Shown here in pieces: positions 41,419 through 50,235 of a stretch of 64,000 nt of DNA; position 1 is the first letter of the stretch, and every line of letters starts with the position of its first letter. This DNA comes from Myxococcales bacterium. GTDB taxonomy: Bacteria > Myxococcota_A > UBA9160 > UBA4427. Where the stretch lies: contig DUCN01000078.1 of NCBI GenBank assembly GCA_012959805.1, positions 1-64,000 on the forward strand, read 5' to 3'. Position numbers and translations under genes: made by a program. A model generated the notes under the pieces. It ran no database searches, was not told the origin of the DNA, and saw nothing but the letters and a program-made list of their open reading frames with translations.

Positions 41419-41905
41419 TTATGTCATCGCCGCTCTGTAGAGTGTGAGGGCATTCGCCGCAGCACACACCAAGTCCCACTCGCCCCGAATATTGGCTCGC
41501 CCTCGCGTGGCGAAGCGCCTAAAACGCATCGTATGTTTGATCTCGGCGACGGGTCGCTCGCCTTGGGTCTTGCGGGTCCGGTAGATTTTCTTCGCCCAAG
41601 GCAAACGGAGTAGGCGGTGCATGCGTTGCGTCTCGGAACCCCGAGGCCACTTCGTTCGCTCCCTTCCGCGGACCGCCACCAAGCAGCGTTGACGTTTCTT
41701 CCGCATCGACTTCAAATTCTGTTCACTCAGATAACCAGCGTCTGCGACGACTATGTCAGGCTTGCGACCCGTCGTTGTTTTGATCTCCTCGACCATCGGA
41801 ACCAACTCTTGGACATCAATGGGCGAGGTCGTTATGTCGTTGGCCACGATCACACAATCTTCATTGGCCGCCACTTGTCCGTTGTAGCAGTACCGCGGCG
41901 CGCGC
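41419..41905 (-). pseudogene. IS1182-like transposase C-terminal remnant
   Basis: YCYNGQVAANEDCVIVANDIT...IVVADAGYLSEQNLKSM...EIKHTMRFRRFATRGRANIRGEWDLVCAAANALTLYRA. Confidence 0.75.
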
Positions 41906-42581: not shown

Positions 42582-44327
42582 TTGGAACCCGATGTGAGAC
42601 ACGGCACAAATGCAAATGAAGGCTGCTCGGAGCTCAATCCAGTGCCTCATTCGCAGAGACAAGGCGCGCGCCTCTGCCTGATCATTCTCCTATTGCTACC
42701 GCTCCAAATGGCTGAGGCTGAAATCATCACGATCGACGCCGCGACCGTAGATGGAATCGTGCCTGCGATACATGGCGTGACCAATGGTCCGATCATCAGC
42801 AGCCAATCGATCCGTGAGCCCCCGTGCCAAAACTTTCAGCCCGCCGATCATTCAGCCACGTTTCAGGAATTATCGATCCCACAGGTCCGAACCCACGGTG
42901 GGGCAGAAACAGATTTAAATCTCATCTGGGAGCACTATCCCAACTACGCGGGGCATAACCCTATTGATGAAAACAACTACCACTGGGAGCGTGCGGATGA
43001 GGCCGTCGCGCAGATCGTCGCCGTGGGTTCTCAGCCTTTCATCCGAATCGGCCAGTCGAAAAATGGCACTCCCAACGCCCCGTGCGATCCTAATCTGAAT
43101 ACCACAATGGTGCCTGACGATTTCCAGGTGTTCGGGGAAGTTGCAAAACGGATCTTGATGCACTTCACCCAAGGCTGGGATAATGGATTCTTCTACGACA
43201 TTGAATATGTCGAAGTCTGGAACGAGTTCTACGAGCCCGATTTCTGGAGCGGCACAGGAACCGAGGCGGCCGAACTCTACGAAGCAACCTACATCGCGGT
43301 AAAGGCCGCTCTTCCCGACATCAAACTGGGGCCGAGCATTAACAGGCCCTTGACTTTAAATCCCTTACCGCACGATTTCTGGAACTACATCGAGACCCAT
43401 GCTGTGCCTGTCGATTTCGTGAGCGCCCACCTCTACGCCGACCAACCAAGAGACATGGAAATCAGCATCCATCAACACCAAACTGACCGCAGCTGGGAAG
43501 ATTTCTTTGCCCTTGTGGACCACCTGCCAGTCGACACGCCCATCGTCAACTCAGAGTGGAATCGCCGGATTGGATGTTCGCTTACCGGAGGCAACGGCAA
43601 CACTGTGCCGGGCGGCGCGTTTGTAGCCGGCGCGCTGATTGCGATGGCTGGCATGCATCCGGCGAATAGTGATCACAACCTGGTGATGTCGCACCTCTAT
43701 TCAGCTCGATCACAGATCTGGAACGCTGCTCTCCAGCCAAAGGCACCCGGCGTGGGACTGGAGGCCTACGCGAAGCTCGTTATGGAGACACCCGAGCGAC
43801 TCGTGGTGAGCGGCGATCATGTTGTTACGGCCGATGTCGACTTCCGGATAATGGCAGGCCGCTCCGGGGACGCGCGGCGGGTGAATCTCCTCGTCAGTTA
43901 CTACGACACGTCTCAGACCACGTGCCCGAATAACAGCCATACCTCGGCCATCATTCCGCTGACTGTGAATGTCACCAATTTGCCATGGGGCGATGCGCTC
44001 TTTACTTGGAAACGCTGGGTCCACACGGCGAACACCGCATTGACCTTGGAGGCCTCAGGCTCAGGCACTGGAGGGACATTTTCCACAACACAGACGATGC
44101 ACGCCAACGTCTTGGAACTCTATGAATTCGAGCAGGTTTATTCTGTGCCCGCAGGAGACCCCTGGCCGGTGTTCGTTGCGTTTCTTTCGATTGGATTATT
44201 CATTGTAGGTCGTCAAAATATTTCGGACAAGGACCGCTCTTCGCTAAGAGACAGTTTTAGGTTTCGGCCTAAGCCGCTTTCTGATCCAGGTACTCTTTCT
44301 TCCTTCGATCCATCGTTCTTCGTTTGA
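42582..44327 (+). CDS. Secreted glycoside hydrolase-like protein (GH39-like) with C-terminal sorting-like tail, 3' end altered by IS
   Basis: Signal peptide; [39 protein letters not shown] tail; residues after that are IS-end sequence. Confidence 0.55.
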
Positions 44328-46220: not shown

Positions 46221-46290
46221 ATGAAGCGCACACGCTTTTCAGAGGAACAGATCACCGGAATTTAAGGCGAATCTTGGGTCAGGCTCCTAG
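46221..46290 (+). mobile_element. IS3-type orfA start remnant, overlapping the right copy of the inverted repeat
   Basis: MKRTRFSEEQITGI then stop. Confidence 0.55.
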
Positions 46291-47477
46291 CTACGAACCC
46301 AGGCTCCTACTCCGACCCCGACAAAAATCAACACCGAGATCAACTGGAAAACCAGGTCGGCGCGGTCGATACGCCGGGCGACCGCGCTCTTGTCTTTGTC
46401 TTCGGCTTGGGCATAGGCGTTCGTTCCCCAAGTGAAGAGTCCGAACAGGCCAAGAGCGATCGCGTAGCCCACAGCGAAAAGTTCATCCAGAAATGTCAGG
46501 TAGGGCAATGGCGGAAGTTCGTCGTGATAGGACTGCTGAAGGAAAATGAGTGTCAGCAACGCCGTGGAGGGAATGGCAAGGCGCACATCGCCTAGGGATC
46601 CAGCCACCGACGGCGAAAGTAAAACAACGGCCATGATGATCAGCAGGGGGAAAACCCAATTGACAAAGGCGCTCCAATAATCCGCCTGATAAACCATCTC
46701 CAATCGCATCTGGCTGAACGTCGGGTGGTACCAGGAGCCAAACCGACTCGAATAGCGATGCAGGTAGGGCTCGAAGGAGGAACTGTTCAGGCGATACCCG
46801 CTCAAGCTTCCCGAACGGCCCATAAAGCCATTGGCGTGATGATGCGGGAGCAGGAGAACTTCCGCGTATTTGTCTGACATAGAGGGCGCCGCCACTTCAA
46901 CGATCACCGGAAGATTGACCTCGCCAAATGGATCCGTGCGGAACTCGATCTCATCATCGTAGAAGCGACTCGAAAATCGATAACGCTGGTAGTATCGGCC
47001 GCCTGAGAGCATCCTGGGCTCTGCCGTCACCGGTTCGAAGAGCGAGTCCCAGATTTCAACCCGATTCGCGAGGCGCACAATATCTCTGGGCTCGATGCCG
47101 TTTTTCTCCATGAGATCGTGTACGGAGGACGGCCATTCGAGCCAGATATACCCATCGGCCGAGAACGTCCTCGAAACCAACGAGAGTTCGTAAACCTTGT
47201 CGACAAGGATGCCCGCATAAACAATCAAGGCGTCCTCGGCGAACTCCTTCGTCGAGGGAAGGGGCACGATGGACTCGCGGTCGCGTTCGAGCAGCAACGC
47301 GGTTTCTTCCCGCAGGTCCGTGTCGAGTTCTCGCTGGAAGCAGGAAAAACCCGCCAGAACCACCGCGAGAAGGAGCACGCAAAGGCGCGCACCGGTGACG
47401 AGACCCCGAACCGGCCGAAATTCATCGGTGCGCTTCATTCGAAAGCGATATCTCTTTTTCTGCAGGTCTTTATCCAT
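46287..47477 (-). CDS. Pentameric ligand-gated ion channel (pro-loop receptor) homologue
   Basis: VYELSLVSRTFSADGYIWLEW; DPFGEVNLPVIVE; M1 YWSAFVNWVFPLLIIMAVVLL; DVRLAIPSTALLTLIFLQQSYHDELPPLPYLTFLDELF; M4 ADLVFQLISVLIFVGVGVGAW. Confidence 0.78.
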   Translation of the reverse strand: MDKDLQKKRYRFRMKRTDEFRPVRGLVTGARLCVLLLAVVLAGFSCFQRELDTDLREETALLLERDRESIVPLPSTKEFAEDALIVYAGILVDKVYELSLVSRTFSADGYIWLEWPSSVHDLMEKNGIEPRDIVRLANRVEIWDSLFEPVTAEPRMLSGGRYYQRYRFSSRFYDDEIEFRTDPFGEVNLPVIVEVAAPSMSDKYAEVLLLPHHHANGFMGRSGSLSGYRLNSSSFEPYLHRYSSRFGSWYHPTFSQMRLEMVYQADYWSAFVNWVFPLLIIMAVVLLSPSVAGSLGDVRLAIPSTALLTLIFLQQSYHDELPPLPYLTFLDELFAVGYAIALGLFGLFTWGTNAYAQAEDKDKSAVARRIDRADLVFQLISVLIFVGVGVGAWVRS

Positions 47478-47488
47478 AGAAAAGCGAT

Positions 47489-48790
47489 CTACTGCTTGAA
47501 CTTTCCGGCGTCCGGGCGATCCAGACTCCAATCGCAGCGGTAGCCGCGGCTCTCCGCCAACAGGGGGCTCCAGGGTAGGGGCTCGATCACCCCCTTGTTC
47601 TCCAAGATCTCGAAGGTTCCATCGCGAAGCACTTGGCCAATCAAAGCCTTTTTCGACAGGTGATGGTTCTCGTGGACCTCAACCGCGCCAGCCGGGCCTT
47701 CGAATGCGACGCCGATCAGCGCATCCCTCACCTGCGAAACTTCGGTGGTCCCGGCCTTCTCCGCCGCCAACGCCCATACATTGACCATCACGTACGCCGA
47801 TTCGGCCGGGTCGCTGATAACGCGATGAACGCCGTGCATCTGCGTGAAGGCTTCGGCGAAGGATCGAGCTGCATCGGTATCCACACTATGAAAGAAGTTC
47901 CAGACTGCATAGGTGCCCTCGAGATACTTGGGCCCGATCGCCACCACTTCTTCCTCGGCGACCGAAAAGCTGAGAATCGTGAAACCGTGCTCCTGATCGA
48001 TTCCCGCTTCCTTCAGCTTCTGGAAGAAGTAAACGTTGCTGTCTCCATTGAGGGTATTGAGCACGATACCGCCTCGCGGAAAGGCCTTTCGAATCGCCTC
48101 CACAACGGGCGCGACATCGTTGCTGCCCAGAGGTAAATAGACTTCGCCAACGATCTTAGCTCCGCTCCCGGCCGCCTTCGCGTTGATGATCGAATTGGCG
48201 GTACGCGGATAGACATAGTCGGAGCCTACCAGGAAGAGCGTCTTGCCCCGGTTCTCGAATAGCCAATCCAGCGCGGGCTCGATCTGCTGATTGGGTGTGG
48301 CCCCCGCGTAGAACACGTTGCGTGAACACTCTTGCCCCTCGTACTGGATGGGGTAGAAGAGAAGGTGATCCTTCTCTTCGAAGACGGGCAGCATCGCCTT
48401 CCGGCTGGCAGAGGTCCAACCGCCAAACACTACGGCCACTTTGTCCTGCTCGATCAACTTTTCTGCCCGCCGGGCAAACGTCGGCCAATCCGAAGCTCCG
48501 TCCTCTTCAATCGCAACGATGGCCAGTCGCTGGCCCTGGATTCTGAGCCCGCCGGCCGCATTGATCTCATGAATCGCAAGCAACTCGGCCTCAGCGACGG
48601 TGTTCTCGGAAATCGCCATAGTGCCGGTCCGAGAGTGAAGAATTCCAACCTTGACGTAGCCGTCGAACCGCTCGACTACGGGCGTTTCGCTCCCGCACGC
48701 CAGGAGCCATAACGCGCTCCCCAGCACAACGGCCAAACCCGGGCGTAGGCGCCTGAATCGCAACGCTCGCTCGACAGTTCTCGATGGCAT
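47489..48790 (-). CDS. UrtA-like amide/urea-type substrate-binding lipoprotein
   Basis: LLACGS lipobox; VKVGILHSRTGTMAISENTVAEAELLAIHEINAAGG; VFGGWTSASRKAMLPVFEEKDHLLFYPIQYEGQECSRNVFYAGA. Confidence 0.85.
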   Translation of the reverse strand: MPSRTVERALRFRRLRPGLAVVLGSALWLLACGSETPVVERFDGYVKVGILHSRTGTMAISENTVAEAELLAIHEINAAGGLRIQGQRLAIVAIEEDGASDWPTFARRAEKLIEQDKVAVVFGGWTSASRKAMLPVFEEKDHLLFYPIQYEGQECSRNVFYAGATPNQQIEPALDWLFENRGKTLFLVGSDYVYPRTANSIINAKAAGSGAKIVGEVYLPLGSNDVAPVVEAIRKAFPRGGIVLNTLNGDSNVYFFQKLKEAGIDQEHGFTILSFSVAEEEVVAIGPKYLEGTYAVWNFFHSVDTDAARSFAEAFTQMHGVHRVISDPAESAYVMVNVWALAAEKAGTTEVSQVRDALIGVAFEGPAGAVEVHENHHLSKKALIGQVLRDGTFEILENKGVIEPLPWSPLLAESRGYRCDWSLDRPDAGKFKQ

Positions 48791-49139: not shown

Positions 49140-50235
49140 CCGAAGGAAGTTCTCGCCAAAAGAGAAAATCCGGATCGCAAGCTGAAGGAAGTCGTTGCCG
49201 AGATCACGCTCAAGAATCCCGTTCTCAAAAAAAGTCTGATGGGTCATGGCGAGGAGGATGCTTCGTGAGACGCACGGCCTCCGAGAAAAGGGAGATCATC
49301 CGCCTGGTCGAGGGGACGGATCTGCCGGTTCAAGTGAGACTGCGGCAACTGGGCTTGCGTGGAAACATGTTCTACGGCTGGTATCAGCGGCATCTCGACG
49401 ACGGCTTCGACAGGCTCAACGACAAGAAGCCCGTGAGACGATCCCGTTGGAATGCGATCCCGGAGAAAGTCCTAAGACAAGTACTTGACCTAGCACTTGA
49501 GCGAACTGATCTCTCACTACGAGAGCTGGCCTGCCGCTACACCGACGAGAGGCGCTACTGCGTGTCCGAATCGAGCGTTTATCTGATCTGAAGGCAGCGG
49601 ATCTCATCACGAATCCGGCCTACATCTTGATGTCGGCATCCGATGCGTTCAAGGACCCGACGACACGGGTCCACTAGATGTGGCAAACCGACTTCACGTA
49701 CTTCCGGATCATCAACTGGAGTTGGTACTACCCGTCGACCGTTCTGGATGACTTCTCGCGCAATATCATCCCCTGGAAGCTAAGTCCGATAATGGGTGCG
49801 ACCGATGTCACCCAGACACCCGATCAAGCGCTCGCGAGCAGCGGTGTCGATCAGGTCAAGGTGAAGCATCGTCCGCGACTGTTAAGCGACAACGGTTCGG
49901 CGTATCTATCAGGCGAACCCAGGGACTACCTGGGCAAATGGAGGATGGCGCATACCCGTGGCGCCCCGTATCACCGGCAGACGCAGGGGAATATCGAGCG
50001 CTATCACCGGACGATGAAAAACGTCGTTTACGACAACAACGAGCGCTATCACGAAGCGATCGACAACGTGACGCCGGCCGACGTCTACTTCGGGCGGCAG
50101 TACGAAGTGCTGACCGAGCGATCGAAGATCAAAGGAAGAAGGAAGAAGGAGTATCTGACCCAGAAGGCGGCTTAGGCCGAAACCCAAAACTGCCTCTTGG
50201 CGAAGAGCGGTTTCTGTCCGAAATATTTTCACGAC
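49140..50235 (+). mobile_element. Degenerate IS3-family element
   Basis: orfA end LKEVVAEITLKNPVLKKSLMGHGEEDAS; orfB GTG at 49265 RRTASEKREIIRLVEGTD...; frame break, internal TAG before MWQTDFTYFRIINWSWYYPSTVLDDFSRNIIPWKL; shortened DDE region; right end to about 50235. Confidence 0.8.

Follow-up and report, generated by a model that had tools for sequence, protein, structure and literature searches.

A UrtA-type solute-binding lipoprotein conserved beside a pentameric ligand-gated ion channel in three bacterial phyla

Binding proteins, pentameric channels and the locus under study

Prokaryotic pentameric ligand-gated ion channels (pLGICs) were linked to periplasmic binding proteins (PBPs) well before this study. 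Tasneem et al. described, in 2005, prokaryotic ART-LGICs that either carry fused PBP domains or lie in predicted operons with separate PBP or Cache genes (PMC549065). The same authors proposed that the PBP and the channel cooperate, with the PBP sensing or concentrating the ligand. The systems that they reported are fusions, as in M. magnetotacticum and B. japonicum, or separate genes assigned to PBP-II. Such domains were omitted from the analysis of Jaiteh et al., who called for follow-up work (PMC4795631), and a DeCLIC paper describes the N-terminal domains of pLGICs as little known (PMC12664993). The activation of other classes of transmembrane receptors by solute-binding proteins (SBPs) is an accepted mechanism, in which a ligand-loaded SBP stimulates chemoreceptors, sensor kinases or c-di-GMP enzymes (PMC9602780).

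In this study, we analysed a window of 64,000 nucleotides (the whole stretch of DNA considered here) from contig DUCN01000078.1 of a Myxococcales bacterium. Two intact open reading frames (ORFs) lie next to each other on the minus strand of this window. The upstream ORF codes for a UrtA-type solute-binding lipoprotein of 433 aa (47489-48790) and the downstream ORF for a pLGIC, or pro-loop receptor, subunit of 396 aa (46287-47477). The stop codon of the SBP gene and the ATG of the channel gene are separated by a gap of 11 nt (47478-47488, minus strand), and in seven of the related loci the two genes overlap by 4 nt when the longest ORF is read. A preliminary description of this DNA, made from the letters of the sequence, had the spacing and the coordinates of both genes right. 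It had also reported that no ABC permease or ATPase is nearby, and indeed no ABC gene was found among the ten ORFs tested between 38.5 and 57 kb. Likewise, the island between IS remnants in which it had placed the pair is supported by transposase pieces on both flanks (DDE_Tnp_1 at 41422-41874 and an rve integrase at 49678-50172). We considered and rejected the idea that the pair is junk from these remnants, as both ORFs are intact and conserved and their GC content resembles that of the neighbouring genes. The same island also codes, between the transposase remnants, for a secreted GH39-like protein with a C-terminal hydrophobic stretch (42582-44324).

Like the systems of Tasneem et al. (PMC549065), this locus combines a pLGIC with a periplasmic small-molecule-binding protein, and the same logic of ligand capture upstream of the channel is proposed for it. 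Unlike those systems, the binding protein is a separate lipoprotein of the UrtA/Peripla_BP_5 type, and the two genes form a portable unit that is present in three phyla. The unit also resembles the SBP-activated receptors in that a ligand-loaded SBP would stimulate a transmembrane receptor; here, the proposed receptor is an ion channel, a class absent from the list given in the introduction of PMC9602780. In the open-access literature, we found no report of UrtA paired with a pLGIC. Hence, the association of PBPs with pLGICs was already predicted in 2005 (PMC549065), and the pairing with a UrtA lipoprotein is new.

The channel subunit and the solute-binding lipoprotein

The channel protein belongs to the pLGIC family, within which it falls in a divergent subfamily. 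Direct scans of this protein against Pfam and NCBIfam gave no match, so we placed it in its family by phmmer, by a profile widened to more distant relatives and by folding. In the phmmer search, residues 86-357 align to ELIC (E = 2e-5). Profile A3, built from 31 aligned proteins comprising the relatives of the channel widened by 12 more distant pLGICs, matches both ELIC (1e-42) and GLIC (about 1e-35), the matches together spanning 1e-42 to 1e-34. Neur_chan_memb is matched by 9 of the 31 aligned relatives and Neur_chan_LBD by 8, and all 31 share P183 in the pro-loop, P277 in M1, L308 in M2 (L9') and P322 in the M2-M3 loop. The AlphaFold model (pLDDT 80.2, pTM 0.66) shows a beta-sandwich extracellular domain followed by four helices, M1 to M4; with close relatives only the pLDDT was 66.8, and it rose to the value given here when the N-terminus was trimmed and the 12 divergent relatives were included. 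When the model was compared with the PDB using Foldseek, the best 50 matches were all pLGICs (prob 1.0), with ELIC, GLIC and DeCLIC at the top. The TM-scores are modest (0.38-0.52, with an rmsd of about 9-11 A), perhaps because the extracellular and transmembrane domains are packed differently in the monomer model. Altogether, the homology and structure searches place the protein where the preliminary description had put it. The four transmembrane segments, the DPFGEVNLP pro-loop and the LPPLPYLTF M2-M3 loop that it had quoted are all present, with a single misquote elsewhere: the sequence reads TFSADGYIWLEW, not SFSADGYIWLEW.

The extracellular beta-sandwich ligand-binding domain, as delimited by the AlphaFold strands and by conservation, spans residues 68-266 (46680-47276; this and the following channel features are on the minus strand). 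It contains the clade-specific segment HHxxNxFxGxxGxLSGY and the pro-loop DPF (residues 182-184, 46926-46934). The M1 helix, which carries the family-invariant proline, lies at 46605-46679, and the M2 pore helix, numbered by alignment to ELIC, at 46521-46589; M3 (46407-46493) and M4 (46293-46400) were assigned from the AlphaFold model. Within M2, D-2', R0', A2', T6', L9', F13' and Q16' are invariant in the 19 linked channels, and position 20' is Asp in the window's channel and D, N or S in its relatives. The acidic ring at -2' predicts cation selectivity. Moreover, 44 positions are invariant in the 19 linked channels and hold a residue never shared by the 12 divergent pLGICs, ten of which come from the window's phylum or nearby searches and two from other phyla. 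Many of these positions are located in the extracellular domain; H212, H213, F218, G223 and W249 are examples from the whole set. They are candidates for an SBP-docking surface, some of which common ancestry alone would yield.

Compared with ELIC, GLIC, DeCLIC and sTeLIC, to which it is about 15-19% identical, the window's channel retains the fold, the pro-loop, the M1 proline, the M2 L9' residue (Ile in GLIC) and the M2-M3 proline. Its clade differs from these channels in having an N-terminal lipobox or anchor with a short linker, a clade-specific extracellular motif, and an SBP neighbour in all assessable loci. In the window, a lipobox-like AGFS/C sequence following a PS00013-type pattern ends at Cys46 (47340-47342). 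A cysteine of this kind closes the N-terminal segment of the channel in most Myxococcota, and the other clades have an uncleaved-looking N-terminal helix. In most of the Myxococcota clade, the channel subunit itself may therefore be lipidated; a lipid-anchored pLGIC subunit, if real, would be unusual.

The partner protein matches Peripla_BP_5 in Pfam (6e-137) and scores 511.6 bits against TIGR03407 (urea_ABC_UrtA), above the cut-off of 492.75, in line with the UrtA-like binding lipoprotein of the preliminary description. Several of the channel-linked SBP homologues score under this cut-off. The closest solved structures are the cyanobacterial urea-binding proteins 8hic, 7s6e and 7s6f (about 1e-146 to 1e-144). 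Prochlorococcus UrtA recognises urea through W120, S122, Y141, Q144, E146, Y190, N246 and S274 (PMC10392092). Alignment to this P. marinus protein shows the same residues, in the same order, as W125, S127, Y146, Q149, E151, Y192, N248 and S276 of the window's SBP (47963-48418, minus strand), and none of the eight differs in any of the 21 channel-linked SBPs. They are also kept in two UrtA-like proteins under the UrtA cut-off (L095 and L096), so the residues alone leave urea specificity unproven. From the sequence of the pocket, urea is the leading, though not the sole possible, ligand. The ligand had earlier been given as an amide, urea or an amino-acid-type compound; the full conservation of the urea site makes urea, or a compound close to it, a better candidate than an amino acid.

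The SBP has the lipobox LWLLA/C (LLAC, Cys32; 48695-48706, minus strand), which is invariant in the linked proteins: the cysteine is present in 20 of the 20 linked SBPs having an N-terminus and in no canonical UrtA of the set. Several linked SBPs of Gammaproteobacteria and Verrucomicrobiota have Cys-Asp, which is an inner-membrane retention signal in E. coli. In phylogenetic trees, the linked SBPs form a single clade separate from the transporter-type UrtAs (support 95/92; 96% of bootstrap trees place them on one side of a branch); of the canonical sequences, cyanobacterial 8HIC comes closest to them and has a long branch. The clade also has residues of its own, such as R54, E67, H142 and F299. 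The linked SBPs share with the UrtA of UrtABCDE systems (8hic, 7s6e, 7s6f) the fold family and the urea-site residues, and differ in having a lipobox instead of the signal peptide of soluble SBPs and a channel as neighbour instead of UrtBCDE. In other Myxococcota, we also noticed UrtA-like Peripla_BP regions inside open frames of 900-1100 aa (L098, L099 and L107), which are possibly SBP-domain sensor fusions.

Pairing and distribution across genomes

Across 85,462 species genomes, we found 21 loci with close relatives of the channel, hosted by Myxococcota, by Halieaceae/Luminiphilus and other Gammaproteobacteria, and by Verrucomicrobiota MAGs. In all 19 loci whose contig extends upstream, a homologue of the window's SBP (56-91% identical) is located directly upstream on the same strand, and a further genome of the Halieaceae family (L127) is paired as well. 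Loci that recur between the phylum search and the genome scan, being from the same genomes, were counted once. The neighbourhood survey suggested in the preliminary description thus reveals a stand-alone PBP gene of the kind reported by Tasneem et al. beside the pLGIC in each of the 20 additional loci that could be assessed, from three phyla and with constant gene order. This pairing is far beyond chance. It is also exclusive, as no third conserved gene was found around the loci; two families of ORFs turn up in the vicinity of four or five loci, at variable positions. In Halioglobus-type loci (L127:6611-6988 and L015:6980-7429), a small gene for a Cys-rich, zf-TFIIB-like protein overlaps the channel gene at its 3' end; a homologue lies near the urease operon of the window's genome (L028:2046-2351). 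We set it aside as a part of the unit because it is confined to one branch.

The two proteins are co-inherited, their distance matrices being correlated with r = 0.86 (0 of 2000 permutations as high). Adjacency and co-inheritance are marks of functional linkage, not of contact. Close orthologues of the channel are present in 9 of 379 sampled genomes of the window's phylum, all from one family, and in 6 of 141 genomes of the Halieaceae-type family. This patchy spread, together with 55-60% identity between phyla, suggests that the pair is transferred as a cassette. No relatives of the pair were found in the plasmid collection or in viral contigs. One Myxococcota MAG (G379) contains two different UrtA-pLGIC pairs (L002:659-3180 and L008:4472-6987), whose channels share about 87% and 66% identity with that of the window, so the system can be duplicated.

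As a negative control, the search of the window's phylum also identified 12 genomes with divergent pLGICs, and no UrtA was found beside these channels in the fetched flanks. A separate group of divergent channels (L130-L135 and L137) is scattered over the Myxococcota families f17, f29 and f53 and has no UrtA neighbours; within this group, the channel of G334 (L130) is the nearest to the SBP-linked clade.

Proposed mechanism and competing explanations

On balance, we lean towards reading the two genes as a chemically gated channel made of two components, in which a tethered UrtA-type SBP gates a cation-selective pLGIC upon binding urea or a similar amide. The preliminary description had likewise suggested that the binding protein captures its ligand and presents it to the channel, and our results support this in part. 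According to our model, the UrtA-derived lipoprotein would be tethered to the membrane and would capture urea, or a small amide much like it, in the conserved UrtA pocket. Once closed around its ligand, the SBP would act on the extracellular part of the pLGIC, a homopentamer, which would then open a cation-selective pore and convert outside urea into cation influx or depolarisation. In this scheme, we infer the tethering in vivo, the docking, the direction of gating (the loaded SBP opening the channel), the cation selectivity, the assembly of the pentamer and the physiological read-out. A more specific version, which we put forward tentatively and as somewhat short of probable, is that the lipid-anchored UrtA-derived sensor docks on the pLGIC to make a dedicated urea-gated cation channel, and that the cassette has been exchanged among marine Myxococcota, Gammaproteobacteria and Verrucomicrobiota.

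NCBIfam names the SBP a urea ABC SBP, and the window's genome does contain, on other contigs, a canonical urtA/urtB/urtC-D cluster with ureD (contig C12; L027, G000:C12:1-7366) and a ureC/F/G urease operon (contig C94; L028, G000:C94:5000-13972). The SBP could then serve an ABC urea transporter encoded elsewhere, with the channel gene as a mere neighbour. We regard this as very improbable. The C12 cluster has a UrtA of its own, which is 44% identical to the channel-linked SBP, and with these genes lying apart the term "orphan" used for the latter in the preliminary description is apt. Moreover, UrtB is above the cut-off in 7 of the 22 carriers and not above it in the other 15, a count blurred by MAG incompleteness, which makes service to an ABC transporter unlikely; in addition, the linked SBPs make up a lipoprotein clade of their own, for which the channel is the constant and only companion. 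Given this count and the lack of ABC genes among the ten neighbouring ORFs tested, the window's SBP is UrtA-like and not a component of UrtABCDE. The metabolism of the carriers bears on the identity of the ligand. A true urease alpha subunit was detected in about 6 of 21 carriers and urea carboxylase above the cut-off in none, the latter giving only sub-cut-off, partial matches of the biotin-carboxylase type, and MAG incompleteness blurs these counts too. Matches to PF00449 in many carriers (E of about 1e-6 to 1e-3) were rejected as urease, as they cover the model partially and resemble other amidohydrolase-type proteins. Since most carriers are without urease and urea carboxylase, the same mechanism may answer to another amide or urea-like compound (formamide, acetamide or a guanidine-type molecule) or to a marine osmolyte. 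The linked SBPs under the TIGR03407 cut-off point in the same direction, and other amides are the probable cargo of UrtA-like five-gene transporters encoded close to amidases (PMC3098086). However, the complete urea pocket of every linked SBP speaks against a different ligand, and homologues picked at random, including some close to the lowest match, were strong binders of urea (PMC10392092); we find this alternative somewhat unlikely.

The two proteins might also be co-regulated without touching each other, the channel having a ligand of its own (protons, amines or urea) and the SBP concentrating or buffering urea or releasing it into the orthosteric site. In GLIC and ELIC, small ligands act on the channel itself to gate it, which agrees with such an arrangement. 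So does the proposal of Tasneem et al. that the PBP preconcentrates ligand for the ligand-binding domain of the channel (PMC549065). Across phyla, the extracellular domain is nevertheless conserved with unusual strictness; this, the residues specific to the clade and the lipobox shared by the linked SBPs fit a fixed protein partner better, and we hold an arrangement without contact to be unlikely. As for the sign of the coupling, our data agree with either direction, and the apo-SBP might clamp the channel shut (or open) and the ligand relieve the clamp. The N-terminal accessory domain of DeCLIC does modulate gating (PMC12664993), but documented SBP-receptor systems are described as answering to the ligand-loaded SBP (PMC9602780), and a reversed sign appears improbable to us.

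The natural stimulus is known for few bacterial pLGICs. Here, the conserved and structurally characterised site of the SBP provides a testable prediction of an agonist, namely urea, for a bacterial relative of the Cys-loop neurotransmitter receptors. Our results also indicate that the label "urea ABC transporter substrate-binding protein" on a gene of a marine genome does not necessarily stand for urea uptake. If gating by the SBP is true, the list of receptor classes under the control of solute-binding proteins would extend to ion channels, and the pair would represent a minimal, modular, two-protein converter of urea to current.
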